Positions 17,406 to 26,482 of a stretch of 38,281 nt of DNA are shown piece after piece. Numbering within the stretch: position 1 is the first letter of the stretch; each line of letters opens with the position of its first letter. The notes beneath the pieces are model-generated. The model saw only the letters and a list, made by a program, of their open reading frames with translations, was not told the origin of the DNA and did no database searches. The position numbers and the translations under genes were made by a program. The DNA is from an uncultured Spirochaetales bacterium (GTDB taxonomy: Bacteria; Spirochaetota; Spirochaetia; Sphaerochaetales; Sphaerochaetaceae), in assembly GCA_949285785.1 (NCBI GenBank), contig CASEAG010000022.1:1-38281 (forward strand), in the 5' to 3' direction.

Positions 17406-19763
17406 ATGTACGAAGTGGTCAAGCGAGACGGCAAGGTCGTGGCCTTCGATATCAGGAAGATCGCAGGTGCGATCAGGAAGGCCTTCGACGCCAGCGGAAA
17501 GCAGTACAACGATGACATAATCGACTTCATCGCCCTCAAGGTGACGAGCGATTATGAGAAGAAGATCAGGGATGGCAAGGTCCAGGTCGAGGACATCCAG
17601 GACAGCGTCGAGAGCGTCCTGTCGGCGGCCGGCTACACCGATGTCGCGAAGACGTACATCCTGTACAGGAAGCAGCGCGAGAAGATCCGCAACATGAAGT
17701 CCACCTATCTGGACTACAAGAACGTCGTGGACGGCTATCTCGGTGCAAGCGACTGGCGTGTCAAGGAGAACAGCACCGTCAACTACTCCCTGGGCGGACT
17801 TATCCTGTCCAACAGCGGCGCCATCACCGCCAACTACTGGCTCAGCGAGATCTACGACCAGGAGATCGCAGACGCCCACAGGAAGTGCGACTTCCATCTG
17901 CATGACCTCTCGATGCTCTCCGGGTACTGTGCAGGCTGGTCCATCAGACAGCTGATCGAGGAGGGCCTTGGCGGCGTCACCGGCAAGATCACGTCCGCTC
18001 CTGCCAAGCACCTGTCCACGCTGTGCAACCAGATGGTCAACTTCCTCGGCATCATGCAGAACGAGTGGGCCGGCGCCCAGGCGTTCAGCTCATTCGACAC
18101 ATATCTGGCACCGTTCGTCAGGGTCGACCATCTCGACTACGACGAGGTGAAGCAGTGCATCCAGTCGTTCGTATACGGCGTCAACACGCCTTCCAGATGG
18201 GGCTGCCAGGCTCCGTTCACGAACATCACGCTGGACTGGGTCTGCCCGCCTGACATGAAGGACAGGAAGGCTCTGGTCGGCGGCAGGGAGATGGACTTCA
18301 CATACGGCGAGTGCAAGGCCGAGATGGACATGGTCAACAAGGCCTTCATCGAGGTCATGATCGAGGGCGACGCGAACGGACGCGGCTTCCAGTATCCGAT
18401 TCCGACCTATTCCATCACCAAGGACTTCGACTGGTCCGAGACCGAGAACAACAGGCTCCTGTTCGAGATGACCGCCAAGTACGGAACCCCGTACTTCTCC
18501 AACTACATCAACTCCGACATGGAGCCCAGCGACGTGCGCAGCATGTGCTGCCGCCTGCGCCTGGATCTCAGGGAGCTGAGGAAGAAGTCCGGCGGCTACT
18601 TCGGATCCGGAGAGTCCACGGGAAGCATCGGCGTCGTCACGCTCAACCTGCCTCGCATGGCGTACCAGAGCAAGGACAAGGACGACTTCTATCATCGCCT
18701 CGACCACCTCATGGACGTCGCGGCCCGCAGCCTCAAGGTCAAGAGGACCGTCATCACGAAGCTGCTGGACGAGGGTCTCTATCCCTATACGAAGCGCTAT
18801 CTCGGCTCATTCGACAACCACTTCTCGACCATCGGACTGGTCGGCATGAACGAGGCCTGCCTGAACGCCAGCTGGCTGAGGATGGACCTGACCCACAAGG
18901 AGGCGCAGGACTTCTCCGTCGATGTGCTCAACCACATGAGGGAGCGCCTGTCCGACTACCAGGAGCAGTACGGCGACCTGTACAACCTCGAGGCGACTCC
19001 GGCCGAGTCCACCAGCTACCGCTTCGCCAAGCATGACGTGGAGGACTTCCCCGCGATCATCACGGCCAGCGACAACGCCGCGGCTCCGTACTATACCAAC
19101 TCGTCGCATCTGCCCGTCGGCTACACCGACGATATCTTCACGGCGCTTGACATCCAGGACAGGTTGCAGACGCTGTACACCTCCGGAACCGTCTTCCACG
19201 TGTTCCTCGGAGAGAAGCTTCCGACCTGGAAGGCCGCTGCCGAGATTGTGCGCAAGATCGCAGAGAACTACGAGATGCCGTACTACACGCTCAGCCCGAC
19301 CTATTCGGTATGTCCTGACCATGGATACATCACCGGCGAGGTCTACAAGTGCCCGACCTGCGGCAAGACCACCGAGGTCTACTCGAGGATCACGGGCTAC
19401 TACCGCCCTGTCCAGAACTGGAACGTCGGCAAGACAGAGGAGTTCAAGGAGAGGAAGGAGTATGTGCTCGAGACCAGCCACTTCCATGGTTCGCATGTCA
19501 CCAGAAAGGAGAACACCGTGGTTGACAACGCCTCGTCCCTGCTGCTCTTCACGACGAAGACCTGCCCCAACTGCAGGACTGCAAAGGCGGCTCTGGACAA
19601 GGCCGGCGTGAAGTACGAGGTGATCGATGCGGAGGAGAATGCGGATCTGGCGAGGAAGTACCACATCATGCAGGCTCCGACGCTGGTCGCACTGAAGGGT
19701 GAGGAGGCCGAGATCTCCAGCGGAATCGCCGCCGTCAAGGCCTACATCGAGCGCGCCTGCTGA
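17406..19763 (+). CDS. nrdD: Anaerobic ribonucleoside-triphosphate reductase with fused glutaredoxin-like domain
   Basis: A 785-residue class III RNR that makes dNTPs without oxygen. It starts with an ATP-cone (residues 1-95, YEVVKRDGKVVAFDIRKI), followed by the large ten-stranded barrel. A zinc site (C636-x2-H639, C649-x2-C652) precedes the glycyl-radical loop RITGYYRPVQNWN, with Gly664 as radical site. Residues of about 707-785 form an extra thioredoxin/glutaredoxin-fold domain with CPNC at 720-723 and the cis-Pro motif QAPTL, which may supply reductant in cis. GAGGTG lies before the ATG. It follows nrdG and shares its NrdR-box arrangement. Confidence 0.95.
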   Translation: MYEVVKRDGKVVAFDIRKIAGAIRKAFDASGKQYNDDIIDFIALKVTSDYEKKIRDGKVQVEDIQDSVESVLSAAGYTDVAKTYILYRKQREKIRNMKSTYLDYKNVVDGYLGASDWRVKENSTVNYSLGGLILSNSGAITANYWLSEIYDQEIADAHRKCDFHLHDLSMLSGYCAGWSIRQLIEEGLGGVTGKITSAPAKHLSTLCNQMVNFLGIMQNEWAGAQAFSSFDTYLAPFVRVDHLDYDEVKQCIQSFVYGVNTPSRWGCQAPFTNITLDWVCPPDMKDRKALVGGREMDFTYGECKAEMDMVNKAFIEVMIEGDANGRGFQYPIPTYSITKDFDWSETENNRLLFEMTAKYGTPYFSNYINSDMEPSDVRSMCCRLRLDLRELRKKSGGYFGSGESTGSIGVVTLNLPRMAYQSKDKDDFYHRLDHLMDVAARSLKVKRTVITKLLDEGLYPYTKRYLGSFDNHFSTIGLVGMNEACLNASWLRMDLTHKEAQDFSVDVLNHMRERLSDYQEQYGDLYNLEATPAESTSYRFAKHDVEDFPAIITASDNAAAPYYTNSSHLPVGYTDDIFTALDIQDRLQTLYTSGTVFHVFLGEKLPTWKAAAEIVRKIAENYEMPYYTLSPTYSVCPDHGYITGEVYKCPTCGKTTEVYSRITGYYRPVQNWNVGKTEEFKERKEYVLETSHFHGSHVTRKENTVVDNASSLLLFTTKTCPNCRTAKAALDKAGVKYEVIDAEENADLARKYHIMQAPTLVALKGEEAEISSGIAAVKAYIERAC

Positions 19764-19882: not shown

Positions 19883-21691
19883 ATGAAGAGGATAGCCGCA
19901 TTCGCCATAGTCGTCCTGTTGTGCATGACATCGATCCTTGCCGCCCATGATGGGAACCGGCAGAGGGTGGTCGAGGTCGGCGACGACCTGTACGATGCGA
20001 TGTGCGCCCTGTATTTCTCCCAGGGCATGGCCTCTCCTTCCACCACCGGCCCCTGGACAGTCGGCGAGATGGACATGATGCTTGAGCGCATCGACGTGTC
20101 CGTACTCGACGATGCGGAGCGCAGACTCTACGACATGATTGCGGCCGGACTCGGCAAAAGCCCGCGCTTCCAGCCTGACGATGCACTCGGCATAGACGCC
20201 TCCATCGTGTTCAGCCCTTATATATACGTGCACGCGAACAAGGACGACTTCACGAATCCGGACGACTGGGCCAATGACGGATGGTGGGGCGACTGGAACA
20301 GGATGGAGAGCCTGCTGGCGATCCCGCTGGCGATCTCCATAGGCGACCACATCTACGGCTATACGGAGGTGCAGGCGGGGGCCAACCGCTCGATGCTCGC
20401 CGACATCCACGATATCGGATACGTGGATCACCCGTCTTCACATGTGACGTATGACGGGCGCAACGTGTTGTCCAACATCTTCCTGCTTCCTCCGGGGGAG
20501 GGCAACGACTTCAACCTGAACTTCCCATATCGGGCGGTAGGCAGCGTGGGTGGCGAGCACTGGAATCTGCTGATCGGACGCGAGAAGCTCAGCTGGGGAC
20601 CCGGCGTCACCGGCAACCTGATGGTCGGCGACCAGATCCCGTACCACAACAACGCCCGATTCAGCGCATTCACCCGGAGCTTCAAGTACACATTCAGCGT
20701 CTCGTCGTTCATCCATCCGCTGAACTACACGTTCAAGGCGGATGATGGCAACGACTATCTGGACATGTACTACGACCAGGCGAAGCCGAGGAAGGGCCTG
20801 AACCTGTTCATCGCCCATCGTCTGGAGTGGAGGATAGGGCAGAAGGCGAACATGACGCTCACCGAGGCGATCATGTACCAGACGGATGGCGGCGGGATGG
20901 ACTTCTCCGTCCTCAGTCCGACGGCCCTGTTCCACAACTACTACATCAGGGGGAACGCCAACTCCATGCTCTCATTCGAGCTGGACATGTCGATCTTCAG
21001 GCACTTCGATTTCTACTTCTCCTTCCTGATAGACGAGATCAACGGGCCGGGCGAATACGACTCGGGAGACGAGTTCCCGCCTTCCGCCTTCGCATTCCAG
21101 ATGGGGCTTAAGACGAGCTGGCCCATGGAGACGGGCTACCTTTACGGCTCCCTCGAAGGCGTGTACACCGACCCGTATCTCTACCTCAGGGACGACGGAC
21201 GGGATCCGAGGGGTTCCGGGGACTACGGAATCAACTTCATCGTCGCCGTTCCCGAATACGTGAACGGCACGGGGAATCAGCGTGTGGCCAACTATTCCCT
21301 GGAGTTCCTCGGCTACCGCTATGGAAACGACAGCATCGTCGCTAATCTCAACCTCGGCTGGAAGGACTACCGCGGATGGAGCCTGGAGGGCAACTTCATG
21401 TATCTCGTCCAGGGGGTGATGGACAGGTATTCCCGCTGGCAGATGGTCGACCATGACGTGGCAGGACCCACCTCCTCGTCAGATGTGGGCAGCTACCTGT
21501 ACCAGGACGTCAGACGGAAGAACGCCGTCAGCCATACACTGCTTTTCACCATCTCCTCCACTGTCGAGATCACCGACTGGCTGTCTGTCGATGGCAAGAT
21601 CGATTACGTCACGATCTTCAACCATCTCAACATGAAAGGCGAGACCGCCTCGGACTTCCAGCTTTCACTCGGAATCATAATGTCATATTGA
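19883..21691 (+). CDS. Outer-membrane beta-barrel protein, Wzi-like candidate
   Basis: A 602-residue protein with a Sec signal peptide (KRIAAFAIVVLLCMTSILAA, cleavage near residue 21). The rest is rich in aromatic residues and alternating strands, ending with an amphipathic strand FQLSLGIIMSY of the kind recognised by BAM. The central block HWNLLIGREKLSWGPGVTG resembles the capsule-assembly Wzi family of outer-membrane barrels, but I hold that only as a possibility. It lies alone between nrdD and a tRNA. No clear Shine-Dalgarno sequence is visible (AGAAG is nearest). Confidence 0.7.
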   Translation: MKRIAAFAIVVLLCMTSILAAHDGNRQRVVEVGDDLYDAMCALYFSQGMASPSTTGPWTVGEMDMMLERIDVSVLDDAERRLYDMIAAGLGKSPRFQPDDALGIDASIVFSPYIYVHANKDDFTNPDDWANDGWWGDWNRMESLLAIPLAISIGDHIYGYTEVQAGANRSMLADIHDIGYVDHPSSHVTYDGRNVLSNIFLLPPGEGNDFNLNFPYRAVGSVGGEHWNLLIGREKLSWGPGVTGNLMVGDQIPYHNNARFSAFTRSFKYTFSVSSFIHPLNYTFKADDGNDYLDMYYDQAKPRKGLNLFIAHRLEWRIGQKANMTLTEAIMYQTDGGGMDFSVLSPTALFHNYYIRGNANSMLSFELDMSIFRHFDFYFSFLIDEINGPGEYDSGDEFPPSAFAFQMGLKTSWPMETGYLYGSLEGVYTDPYLYLRDDGRDPRGSGDYGINFIVAVPEYVNGTGNQRVANYSLEFLGYRYGNDSIVANLNLGWKDYRGWSLEGNFMYLVQGVMDRYSRWQMVDHDVAGPTSSSDVGSYLYQDVRRKNAVSHTLLFTISSTVEITDWLSVDGKIDYVTIFNHLNMKGETASDFQLSLGIIMSY

Positions 21692-21790: not shown

Positions 21791-21905
21791 GCTTTCCATC
21801 ATTTCAGCTTCTTGCATGCCGCCCGACTTCCCTCGTGCCGTATGGGGTGTGAATGATATTCGGCCAGTTGGATAGATGAAAGATGCATTTTCTGCCTGAT
21901 GACGG

Positions 21906-21934
21906 TTGAACAAAAAATCCAAAGAGAGTAGGAT
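21906..21934 (+). promoter_or_regulatory. Putative tRNA-Pro promoter
   Basis: -35 TTGAAC (21906-21911), 17-bp spacer, -10 TAGGAT (21929-21934). Predicted initiation near 21941 lies about 5 nt before the mature tRNA. Confidence 0.5.
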
Positions 21935-21945
21935 GCAGAAAGTCT

Positions 21946-22019
21946 CGGGCTGTAGCGCAGGGGTTTAGCGTACAAGTCTGGGGGACTTGGGGTCGCCGGT
22001 TCAAATCCGGCCAGCCCGA
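21946..22019 (+). tRNA. tRNA-Pro (anticodon GGG)
   Basis: A 74-nt cloverleaf. The acceptor stem pairs CGGGCTG with CAGCCCG and has A as discriminator base. The D-arm starts with GCGCAG, and the anticodon stem CAAGT/ACTTG encloses loop CTGGGGG with anticodon GGG. The T-arm is GCCGG-TTCAAAT-CCGGC. CCA is not encoded. A strong terminator follows. Confidence 0.95.
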
Positions 22020-22033
22020 CTACCGAGCAGCAT

Positions 22034-22070
22034 GCCGGCATTCCACAAGGGGTGCCGGCTGTCTTTTTCT
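22034..22070 (+). terminator. Rho-independent terminator of tRNA-Pro
   Basis: An 11-bp stem (GCCGGCATTCC with GGGGTGCCGGC, including G-T pairs) closes the tetraloop ACAA and is followed by TGTCTTTTTCT. Confidence 0.85.
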
Positions 22071-22198
22071 CCTGGAACCCCTGCAATCGGCTTTCGCCTT
22101 GCATCATTCTGGTGCGGATCGGGTGTCGAATGAACGTGAACATATGACATAAGTCTTCAAAACACGATCATATCCCGATGAGCCATGGAATATCGATA

Positions 22199-22228
22199 TT
22201 GCGAAATATGTTGTCATGACAGTATAAT
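22199..22228 (+). promoter_or_regulatory. Putative promoter of the chaperone-usher locus
   Basis: -35 TTGCGA (22199-22204), 18-bp spacer, perfect -10 TATAAT (22223-22228). The leader carries GAGAGG before the ATG at 22252. Confidence 0.55.
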
Positions 22229-22251: not shown

Positions 22252-22995
22252 ATGAGACATAAGTCAATTGTAATCATGTTTCTGCTGTCGATTCTTGCCT
22301 GTGCAACGCTCTCTGCGTTCCAGTTCGAACCGCTTGTGCAGTCATTCGACGTATCCGGTGCAGACGCCACCAGGACCTTCACCATAACCAACGACAGCGA
22401 TGACATCATCGCCGTGGTCGTCAGCGCCCTTGTCAGGACCCAGGACGGCGAAGGCAACGAGGTCAACTCGGATGCCTCCAGATATTTCAACATCCAGCCG
22501 GCGAGAATACTCATCCAGCCGCAGAGCTCGCAGATCGTCCGCGTCCAGTACCGTGGGCCCAGAACCGTCACCAGGGAGCTCTCTTTCAGGATAGTCGCCG
22601 AGCAGATCCCGTATTCGCAGGGCCGCATCGCCTCCTCGGGAAGCATGTTCAACTTTCTTTATGTCTTCCGTGCATCCGCCTATGTGCTTCCCAACCAGAT
22701 ACAGGAGAGCGTGCGCGTGGGCGCGTTGCAGGACAACGGGGACGGCACGCTGGCCGTGACGCTTGCCAACAACGGCAACGTCCATCAGATACTGTACGAC
22801 TGCCAGCTGACGATAAAGGATGCAGAAGGTGGAAGTGTGACACTGTCAGGATCCGATGCGCTGCCGGGAATCTCCGGTTCGAACATCCTTGCGGGCATGA
22901 CATGGACCAAGGACATCCCGCTCCCCGATGGTCTTGCCGCAGGTTCCACCTACAGTGCATCCATCGAATACGACTTCGACATAGAGAACCAGTGA
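22252..22995 (+). CDS. PapD-like periplasmic pilus-assembly chaperone
   Basis: A 247-residue protein with an N-terminal signal (MRHKSIVIMFLLSILACATLSA). Cleavage after LSA would give a soluble periplasmic protein; ILAC is a weaker lipobox alternative. Domain 1 is an Ig-like fold with FTITNDSDDIIAVVVSAL and the strand QSSQIVRVQYRGP that resembles the chaperone G1 strand, which donates to pilin subunits. FRIVAEQIPY and the later ASAYVLPNQIQ match fimbrial chaperones. A second Ig-like domain begins near VTLANNGNVHQIL. It is followed 44 nt later by an usher-like gene, the standard partner. No pilin gene is nearby. Confidence 0.8.
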   Translation: MRHKSIVIMFLLSILACATLSAFQFEPLVQSFDVSGADATRTFTITNDSDDIIAVVVSALVRTQDGEGNEVNSDASRYFNIQPARILIQPQSSQIVRVQYRGPRTVTRELSFRIVAEQIPYSQGRIASSGSMFNFLYVFRASAYVLPNQIQESVRVGALQDNGDGTLAVTLANNGNVHQILYDCQLTIKDAEGGSVTLSGSDALPGISGSNILAGMTWTKDIPLPDGLAAGSTYSASIEYDFDIENQ

Positions 22996-23039
22996 GGCCA
23001 TCTGCCGATACTGCTCCATGAAAGGTGTGTGATTGCGGT

Positions 23040-26000
23040 ATGAAGAGGAGGACTTTCGATTTCAAGAAGGTGCTGGCATTGACCTTTCTCATGGTCATGC
23101 TTGCCTGTCTGCTGTCCTTTGTTGCATTCCATCTCTTCTCCACTGCAGGTCGGAGCACCGGGCAGGATGGTGTCGGCGAAGGCATTCAGACAATCGTCGA
23201 GCCCACGCCTGCCGGGATACAGGAGGATGCTCCCTCCGTTTCCCAGCCCATGCAGGATCCATCGGGACAGGAGGTTACGCCTGCCGCAGCTCCGCATCCC
23301 GATTCCTTGAACCCGTCCGATGACGTTTCCGCCATGCCCGATGATGTAGACACCTGCCTGGAGCCGGATCCGGATCATCCTGACACCGCCGCCCTCCAGC
23401 CGGATGCGACGGTCCACATGACCGCAAGTCCTGTCGAGACCCGGCTCGAGGATGCCGGGGAGGTCAGGGCGGATGATGAGGGAACTCTCCATGTGGATGG
23501 TGCAGGGGAGCCGGGTCCGGATACGGATACGGATACGGATACGGATACGGATGCCGTGACGGCGACGTCTGAAGCGGACGGGAGTGCATCACCGACAGGC
23601 CAGGACGATTCACCCGATACGCACGGGATAATAATCACCGGTTCCGACGAACCCGTCTACGATGACGACTTCTTCTCGACGTTCTTCGTCCAGGGCCAGG
23701 ACACCCTGGAGTACGACGACGGCCTGTACTATTTCATGTACTCTGTCGAGGGCGAGGTGATGGGCAATCTCGAGGTGCTCTTCCAGGACGGTCGGCGTCT
23801 GATGAACACCTCGGAGCTCCAGATGTATCTGTCGGCCCTGCTGACCGACGAGGCCTACGAGAGGCTTCTCGGCGAAGGCGTCGGGGACTATGTGTCCATC
23901 GTCTTCTTCGAGGACAACGGCGTGCAGGTCGCCTACGACGAGGTCGGTTTCACGATCGACATGCGCTTCTCTCCGGACGACATGCCCGAGAGGGTGATCA
24001 GCCTTGCCGGCGGATCCTACCGGAGGCGGAACTACAGCCTGTCCGGCGCCGTCCAGCTCGAGCCGGACTGGTTCAGCTGGAGGACCGGCTACAACCTCTA
24101 CACGAGTCTGGACTGGGCCTTCGATGAGAACCTGTTCAACTATTCGGTCAGCCTGAGCGTCTCCAACTACCTCACGCTTGGACCTGTGGATTTCGACTTC
24201 TTCTTCAATCTCGGAGTGCGCAACGACAGGTTCCATTTCAACTGGAACTCATATCGCTTCTTCCACGACTTCGAGGATGAGGGCATCAGGCTGAGCTGGG
24301 GCAACGTCTACGGCTTCGGCCAGACGCCCCAGGGCACGCCGCTCGGCATCCAGTTCGAGAAGAGCTACAGCTACGGCAACCTGTCAAGTCCGTACAACAG
24401 CCACAGGGAATACCTGACGATAGTCGAGGAGTCCTATGTCTGGATCGTGCGCAACGGACGCATAATCTTCCACAGGCTCCTCCAGCCGGGCAACTATAGA
24501 CTGGAGGACTTCACGTTCGACTCCGGCTACAACGAAATCGAGATCGTCGTCACTCCCAGCCGTCTGGTCGATCCGTCCATGGACCGCAGCGACCCCGAGG
24601 TCCTGAAGCTGCTCGAGGACGTGTCATACAGACAGTACTTCGACATGTCATACGACTCGCAGCTGCTGTCCAGAGGGGAGACCCTGTTCGGAGGCTCCAT
24701 CACCGTCGGCCGCAGCCAGATAGATGTCGGTGACGAGGACCAGGCCACCGGTCTTCTGCTCAGAGTCTCACCCTGGTATTACTACGACTACCATCTTGAC
24801 GACGTGGTGCTGTCCTGGTACCAGGATGTCGGACTGAGCGACGAGATGACGCTCATGAGCGACTTCAGCATGCGCATAGGAAGCAGCAGGAGCGTCGCCG
24901 ACATGTCGCTCTCGCTAAGGCGTGCCTGGCTTCTCGGCACCACGACCGTCGGCGTCGACGGTGTCCTCGACAGCGCCTCGTCGCCTTACGGCCCCTTCGA
25001 CTTCCAGGCAAGGCTGGACCACAGCTTCCTCTTCGACTGGAAGGTCCTCAGGGGCATGAGCACATCGGTGTCCTATGCCAATAGCAGCTATAACGGAGGT
25101 GATGGCAATCGCCTGTCGTTCAGGCTCTCGTTCTCCGGTTCGCTCGGCTTCCTGCGCTACAGCGCATCCGGCAGTCTCGTCATTGACGACTACGACTGGA
25201 ACAGGAGCGAATGGAGGATCAGCACATCGTTCGGTGTCAGCCCGTTCAGGGGACTGAGCATATCGGCGGGCGTGAGCGCAGGCCGTAACCTCGCCAGGGA
25301 GACGAACGTCCAGGTCTCGGGCTATCTCACCGCAAGCTTCTCCTTCGGTGGAAAGGCCAGCGGATCGTACTCGACGGGCTTCACCGGCACGCACAGCCTC
25401 TCGACGAACTTCTCGATAGGAAGCCGTGACAGCTTCTCGGTCAATCTGTCCGGCTTCGACTTCAGCGAACCTGTCGACCATACACTGTCCGGAAGCTGGT
25501 ATCACAGCGGTGACCTGTTCGGCCTGAGCGTGCGCGCCTCGGCCTATGACAGGTACGACAGGACGAATCTGTCCGCGAGCCTGTCCACGGCCAGCTTCTT
25601 CTCCGGCGGCGTGTTCGGCTTCAGCCGCTCGGTGCGTGACAACTTCGTCCTCATACGTCCCCGCGGATCGCTTTCGGGAGCACGCATCCAGGTCGCTCGT
25701 TCCAACCAGGGCAGCGCCCAGGACATCGACAGCCTGTTTGGAACAGGCGTCTATTCGTCGCTGTCCAGCTATCAGAGGAACAACATAGTCGTCTATGTGA
25801 CGGGTGACGACGAGTTCGCCGAGACCCGGACGTTCGCCTATGAACTCGCTCCGGACAACCGGGCGGGCTACTCCGTGAGGATAGACATCCCACAGGAGTA
25901 CACCGTAACCGGAGTCGTCGAATTCGACGGCGTGCTTCAGGACACCTTCAGCTCCCCTGTCTACAAGGTGGTCGAGAAGGAGGATGGAGGTACGGTGCTG

Positions 26001-26363
26001 GAAGGGGACCTGTCCCTCTACCTGTTCGCCGACCAGGACGGCCGTTTCATAATCTCCTCTGTGGAGCCGGGTACCTATGTCTTCGACGTCGCATACGAGG
26101 GCGCATGGTACGCGGTACGCTTCAGCGTGGAGGCGATGGAGGACGACGAGCTGAGGGTCGTGGACTACGGCACGATCGACTTCACCCGTTCTCTTGCTGA
26201 ACAGTGCGCGTTCCGCAGTGGAGATGATGTCGAATCCTATCTTGAAGGCTATGACGGGGTCCTGGACATCGGCGCCGAGCGCATCATCGATTCGCCCACC
26301 TTCTGGAACGAGCTGTTCCCGCCGCTGAGCGAGGAGGAGATCAGCCAGGATTTCGGCCAGTGA
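23040..26363 (+). CDS. Usher-like outer-membrane protein with long acidic N-terminal linker
   Basis: A 1107-residue protein related to FimD/PapC ushers. Residues 11-33 are hydrophobic and may be an uncleaved membrane anchor or a long signal peptide. Residues of about 40-212 are low-complexity, rich in Asp, Pro and Thr, with a (DT)5 repeat at 161-170. From about 213 there is an usher-like N-terminal region and a large barrel of amphipathic strands. VQNG/PG-type plug sequences are represented by IVRNGRIIFHRLLQPGNYRLEDF. The segment IDSLFGTGVYSSLSSYQRNN matches the usher segment before the C-terminal Ig-like domains, and ISSVEPGTYVFDVAY fits those domains. I used the ATG at 23040 with AAAGGTG upstream; GTG at 23025 is an alternative. 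Confidence 0.75.
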   Translation: MKRRTFDFKKVLALTFLMVMLACLLSFVAFHLFSTAGRSTGQDGVGEGIQTIVEPTPAGIQEDAPSVSQPMQDPSGQEVTPAAAPHPDSLNPSDDVSAMPDDVDTCLEPDPDHPDTAALQPDATVHMTASPVETRLEDAGEVRADDEGTLHVDGAGEPGPDTDTDTDTDTDAVTATSEADGSASPTGQDDSPDTHGIIITGSDEPVYDDDFFSTFFVQGQDTLEYDDGLYYFMYSVEGEVMGNLEVLFQDGRRLMNTSELQMYLSALLTDEAYERLLGEGVGDYVSIVFFEDNGVQVAYDEVGFTIDMRFSPDDMPERVISLAGGSYRRRNYSLSGAVQLEPDWFSWRTGYNLYTSLDWAFDENLFNYSVSLSVSNYLTLGPVDFDFFFNLGVRNDRFHFNWNSYRFFHDFEDEGIRLSWGNVYGFGQTPQGTPLGIQFEKSYSYGNLSSPYNSHREYLTIVEESYVWIVRNGRIIFHRLLQPGNYRLEDFTFDSGYNEIEIVVTPSRLVDPSMDRSDPEVLKLLEDVSYRQYFDMSYDSQLLSRGETLFGGSITVGRSQIDVGDEDQATGLLLRVSPWYYYDYHLDDVVLSWYQDVGLSDEMTLMSDFSMRIGSSRSVADMSLSLRRAWLLGTTTVGVDGVLDSASSPYGPFDFQARLDHSFLFDWKVLRGMSTSVSYANSSYNGGDGNRLSFRLSFSGSLGFLRYSASGSLVIDDYDWNRSEWRISTSFGVSPFRGLSISAGVSAGRNLARETNVQVSGYLTASFSFGGKASGSYSTGFTGTHSLSTNFSIGSRDSFSVNLSGFDFSEPVDHTLSGSWYHSGDLFGLSVRASAYDRYDRTNLSASLSTASFFSGGVFGFSRSVRDNFVLIRPRGSLSGARIQVARSNQGSAQDIDSLFGTGVYSSLSSYQRNNIVVYVTGDDEFAETRTFAYELAPDNRAGYSVRIDIPQEYTVTGVVEFDGVLQDTFSSPVYKVVEKEDGGTVLEGDLSLYLFADQDGRFIISSVEPGTYVFDVAYEGAWYAVRFSVEAMEDDELRVVDYGTIDFTRSLAEQCAFRSGDDVESYLEGYDGVLDIGAERIIDSPTFWNELFPPLSEEEISQDFGQ
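23520..23552 (+). repeat. In-frame hexanucleotide repeat (GATACG)5
   Basis: Five perfect GATACG units followed by GAT encode alternating Asp-Thr in the usher linker. Copy-number change would lengthen or shorten the linker by two residues per unit without breaking the frame. Confidence 0.9.
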
Positions 26364-26452: not shown

Positions 26453-26482
26453 TTGACATTCACAGCCAAAGAAAAGAATATT
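26453..26482 (+). promoter_or_regulatory. Putative V-ATPase operon promoter
   Basis: Perfect -35 TTGACA (26453-26458), 18-bp spacer, -10 AATATT (26477-26482). The leader before the ATG at 26498 would be only about 8 nt and holds no Shine-Dalgarno sequence. Confidence 0.5.

Follow-up and report, generated by a model that had tools for sequence, protein, structure and literature searches.

Judged from sequence, the two genes described here are quite probably the assembly half of a chaperone-usher pilus system that is split, with its subunits encoded at an unlinked locus behind trpS. They lie in what we call the window, the whole stretch of 38,281 nucleotides that was analysed. The initial annotation offered two explanations for a pair that has no pilin gene beside it: either the pilins are encoded elsewhere, or the system is a divergent one whose exported cargo is not a pilin. 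We find support for the first, in a cluster of six subunit genes in the same genome that is inherited and lost jointly with the pair. If the system is split and its subunits lie elsewhere, a non-pilin cargo is not needed.

The pair and its surroundings

The chaperone gene (22252-22995, plus strand) encodes 247 residues and matches PF00345 at 1.2e-7, above the curated cut-off. PapD_N is matched by 25 of the 27 chaperone homologues, and the idea of a PapD-like chaperone is borne out. After a gap of 30 bp comes the gene for the outer-membrane usher (23025-26363, plus strand), which gives 1112 residues from a GTG and 1107 from the ATG at 23040, which is probably its start. The usher matches PF00577 at 6.3e-8, again above the curated cut-off, over residues 687-926 only (nt 25083-25802). 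Neither PapC_N (PF13954) nor PapC_C (PF13953) has a match in it. The earlier description of a 1107-residue usher with plug, barrel and C-terminal segments therefore stands as far as the usher goes, and the plug and C-terminal parts rest on a predicted model. Predicted secondary structure and the PF00577 match together place the usher core, with its N-terminal domain, plugged barrel and C-terminal domains, at residues 206-1112 (23640..26360, plus strand).

The usher of a chaperone-usher pathway is a barrel of 24 strands with a plug and with N- and C-terminal domains. The model of the window usher is poor (pLDDT 45, built from four sequences), with many strands. When this low-confidence model was compared with the PDB using Foldseek, the best 17 matches, with E from 1e-15 to 1e-9, were all FimD/PapC, and barrels of another type came in from 1e-5, so the predicted fold ranks FimD/PapC above the other barrel types that had been named as the alternative. 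PF00577 is matched by 11 of 28 ushers. A PF00577 search across the whole genome gave no match, though the usher protein itself matches, and no usher was among the matches of the usher profile to PDB sequences.

The upstream neighbour of the pair is a tRNA-Pro (21946-22020), followed by a terminator-like hairpin (22034..22059, plus strand) that is the likely upstream boundary. There are promoter-like sites on the plus strand 5' of the chaperone (22199..22228, 10 of 12 consensus positions) and between the usher and the V-ATPase (26453..26482). All three are consensus matches, from scans that returned 7 promoter-like sites against 2.3 expected and 4 terminator-like sites against 3.0. With promoter-like sites before both the chaperone and the V-ATPase, the pair is probably a transcription unit of its own. 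Downstream lies the V-ATPase operon, whose 363-aa gene matches PF01992 at 1.2e-41. Among the open frames of the locus none between the tRNA-Pro and the V-ATPase is subunit-like, so the initial annotation was right on this point locally.

Other features of the neighborhood deserve a short mention. A frame of 114 aa on the minus strand (21799-22143) is antisense to the tRNA-Pro and apparently conserved in five genomes; it is probably no gene, the simplest account of its conservation being that of the tRNA-Pro. At 19883-21691 is a secreted 602-aa protein with a weak match to Wzi, a capsule-assembly barrel (PF14052, 0.0026, below cut-off), and its homologues lie near the chaperone-usher pair in three other congeners. 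An anaerobic ribonucleotide reductase (NRDD) at 17406-19763 carries an in-frame C-terminal fusion to a glutaredoxin/thioredoxin-like domain (residues ~713-772).

Subunit genes at other loci

The six secreted subunit genes lie in a row on another contig of the same genome (G000:C31:87625-92989), downstream of genes that, from a reading of their sequences, we take to be ileS and trpS. Their order is C-D, then A-B-C-D, which is one complete set and an extra C-D pair. Iterated profiles drift among A, B and C, so these letters should be read as places within the module and less as established orthology. A D profile made from paralogous operons finds two D genes in this genome (2.7e-48 and 6.6e-26), and D subunits are large, at ~390-475 aa. 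None of the six subunits has a match in Pfam, PF05229 (SCPU) included. Comparing profiles with profiles brings out the relationship: C scores 82-83% against SCPU-type pilins and adhesins, 95% against the pilin-like A type and 89% against B, and the C-terminal half of D scores 54% against SCPU pilins. B against SCPU pilins gives 1%. As negative controls, 42 profile comparisons with seven unrelated families all gave <=1%. A first pilin profile that included the signal peptide matched many signal peptides only, so it was trimmed and the search repeated. These subunit families escape the standard libraries, and annotated genomes consequently look pilin-less.

The pair is not confined to this genome. 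A search with one sequence found the usher in 27 of 61 relatives; of 15 fetched congeners 12 have it, as do most of the family's remaining genomes. In a sample of the class comprising 297 genomes, 81 have the chaperone. Conservation of the pair across relatives rules out chance. Within the family it usually sits directly upstream of the V-ATPase. The gene upstream of the chaperone was considered as a pilin and set aside, since in two genera it is by appearance a TetR-type regulator; in G022 the gene at this place is pilin-like.

The subunit module and the pair go together. Twelve genomes of the genus have a V-ATPase-linked pair, and 10 of them, the window's own among these, carry the module behind trpS. 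Within the genus, D is found in all 12 genomes with the pair and the trpS-linked module in none of the 4 without it (p 5.5e-4, a value that ignores shared ancestry). G001 has an 84-aa usher remnant beside the V-ATPase and no trpS-linked module, a case of partial loss. G005 has kept the trpS region and lacks both the module and the pair. In the sample of the class, D is found in 25 genomes and every one of them carries the chaperone, again a count that ignores ancestry.

Paralogous copies of the system keep their subunits at hand. Relatives with such a copy have ~10 secreted subunit genes directly 3' of the usher; in G001, G011 and G030 the order is chaperone, usher, B, C and D, then several pilin-like secreted genes. 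The ushers of these three form one clade in our tree (100/100). G249, G125 and G237 hold three further operons of the paralogous kind, with a different gene order in G237 (L150, on G237:C20), where the chaperone and usher apparently flank about a dozen subunit genes (the usher is cut by the end of the stretch). Other families of the class often have a compact operon of a pilin (~160 aa), chaperone, usher (800-950 aa) and two-domain adhesin (~315 aa). The N-terminal half of these adhesins matches SCPU PF05229 (8.2e-9; a match of 5.1e-5 also comes from the distant operons), and the C-terminal half matches the pilin profile at 98%. It had been suggested that an adjacent pilin gene in relatives would make this an ordinary, shuffled cluster. 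Such genes do exist in the paralogous clade, but the V-ATPase-linked form consistently lacks them at its own locus.

One could argue that the two genes by themselves make up a secretion system for a non-pilin cargo, with no relation to the trpS cluster. More than a dozen genomes have the V-ATPase-linked pair with no adjoining subunit gene, and the D profile finds no match in some same-family genomes that have the pair, namely those of genus g3, several of which are one-contig assemblies. The subunits of that genus may be too diverged for the profile. Against a non-pilin cargo stand the homologous subunits directly inside the paralogous operons, the joint loss of the pair and the trpS module, and the distant relatives with ordinary pilin-chaperone-usher-adhesin operons. 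We regard non-pilin export as quite unlikely, and do not support that part of the initial annotation. As an observation on g3 itself, two of its one-contig genomes (at L144 and L148) have the V-ATPase-linked pair intact and no D match anywhere in the genome.

It could also be that the trpS-locus subunits are served by another, undetected usher, the V-ATPase-linked pair being a remnant. There are relatives with two chaperone-usher pairs, such as G011. But the window's genome, which is ~96% complete, has a single usher match and a single chaperone match, and both frames are intact, as is the G011 ortholog at 73% identity. This makes a second usher very improbable in our opinion. Separately, G014 has eight secreted pilin-like genes in a row with no chaperone or usher adjoining (L083:7166-13093, on G014:C20). 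This is a second orphan cluster of subunits, and the genome has one usher.

The split pilus system we propose would work much as the known pathway does. The subunits would cross the inner membrane by Sec, and the chaperone would hold each of them by donor-strand complementation, anchoring the C-terminus of the subunit at Arg113. The usher would then exchange donor strands and pass the fibre through its barrel. From its size, its position and analogy, the large D subunit may be the tip adhesin.

The N-terminus of the usher

In front of its core the usher has a hydrophobic helix, recognized by hydropathy (23070..23138, plus strand, residues 16-38), and an acidic, disorder-prone linker (23139..23639, plus strand). 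The initial annotation did not mention this feature. The linker is 172 residues long and includes a (TD)n run; there are 38 D+E and 3 K+R over residues 35-206. Every usher of the same spirochaete family with a complete start has the long hydrophobic helix, and the linker before the core is usually 95-190 residues and mostly acidic. In genus g3 it is near neutral, and the shorter length measured for G029 comes from another hydrophobic stretch being called within its linker. The pilin-linked usher clade goes further, with 3-7 predicted N-terminal helices (G001, G011, G030, G125 and G249); in the three of its ushers that were measured the frame starts ~30 bp after the chaperone. Outside the family, most ushers begin with a short signal-like segment, and their linker is small or absent. 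A few have 100-190 residues at the N-terminus without strong acidity, some perhaps through wrong start calls. To our knowledge the classical FimD/PapC ushers do not have an N-terminal helix plus a long linker.

This arrangement suggests that the ushers of the family are tethered to the inner membrane by the helix and the acidic linker. The N-terminal domain of an usher faces the periplasm, so an inner-membrane anchor fits topologically. The helix would stay in the inner membrane and the linker would cross the periplasm, a step that is more speculative than the others. We see about an even chance of a trans-envelope usher in the full sense, that is, one to seven helices in the inner membrane, a long and mostly acidic linker to the outer membrane, pilus assembly coupled to the inner membrane, and subunits at an unlinked locus. 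If true, the tether would revise the picture in which the usher stands free in the outer membrane. We found no description of an inner-membrane anchor on an usher in our literature search.

The alternative has no tether: the helix would be removed as a long signal peptide, leaving the acidic stretch as a periplasmic tail. It bears on the tether and does not touch the split-pilus reading. Known ushers have a cleaved signal peptide. The window usher has a weak signal-peptidase-like site, STA|GRS, after its helix, and 9 of 24 single-helix ushers have such a site by a crude motif test that does not separate the classes cleanly. On the other hand, the hydrophobic stretch of the ushers is longer (median 26) than that of the chaperones (18) and subunits (17) from the same genomes, and the long linker is conserved. 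The 3-7 predicted membrane helices of the five related ushers cannot form a single signal peptide. We consider cleavage a serious possibility, if a little short of even.

Comparison with known systems

We read the window system as a chaperone-usher pilus system in a gut-type spirochaete, archaic-like in character and split between two loci. Subunit genes within a chaperone-usher cluster are usual, not defining. They are absent from the cluster at the window locus and present in the paralogous and distant operons. The pair had been put forward as an undescribed system. Our literature search, which left most subscription journals outside it, turned up no report of a chaperone-usher system in a spirochaete, but the machinery is a recognizable chaperone-usher pathway. 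The finding extends chaperone-usher pili to a phylum for which we found no published report. The group includes gut bacteria, and adhesion fibres could matter for colonisation.

Non-classical (archaic or alternative) chaperones are marked by an invariant proline and by a strand-F1 arginine that is highly conserved, and archaic systems are listed for proteobacteria, Cyanobacteria and Deinococcus-Thermus, the host phylum not being among them (Pakharukova et al., PMC4654587). The window chaperone has this pair of residues in Pro83 and Arg113, which are invariant among the 27 homologous sequences and align with EcpB. The archaic (sigma) pili, such as Csu of Acinetobacter baumannii, share the proline and the F-strand arginine (PMC4654587). 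CsuC is the first fold match of the chaperone model, ahead of Caf1M and PapD; the model is of modest confidence (pLDDT 58). The SCPU domain of these systems is present in the adhesins of the distant spirochaete operons. Unlike Csu, the window system has its assembly and subunit genes unlinked, its subunits are too diverged for Pfam, and its usher has the N-terminal helix and linker.

The E. coli common pilus, an alternative system, is the other point of comparison. EcpB is the closest solved structure to the window chaperone by sequence (0.003), and Arg113 aligns with the EcpB residue corresponding to Arg89. Against EcpB of E. coli K-12, hhalign gives 89.8% for an alignment that spans domain 1; the Tyr and Arg that bind the subunit carboxylate belong to domain 2. 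The likeness does not extend to the other proteins: by HH comparison the usher family gives 2.9% against EcpC, no signal, and the subunit profiles give none against EcpA and EcpD. As for the classical ushers, the 17 FimD/PapC structures that top the Foldseek list for the window usher share only ~9-13% sequence identity with it.
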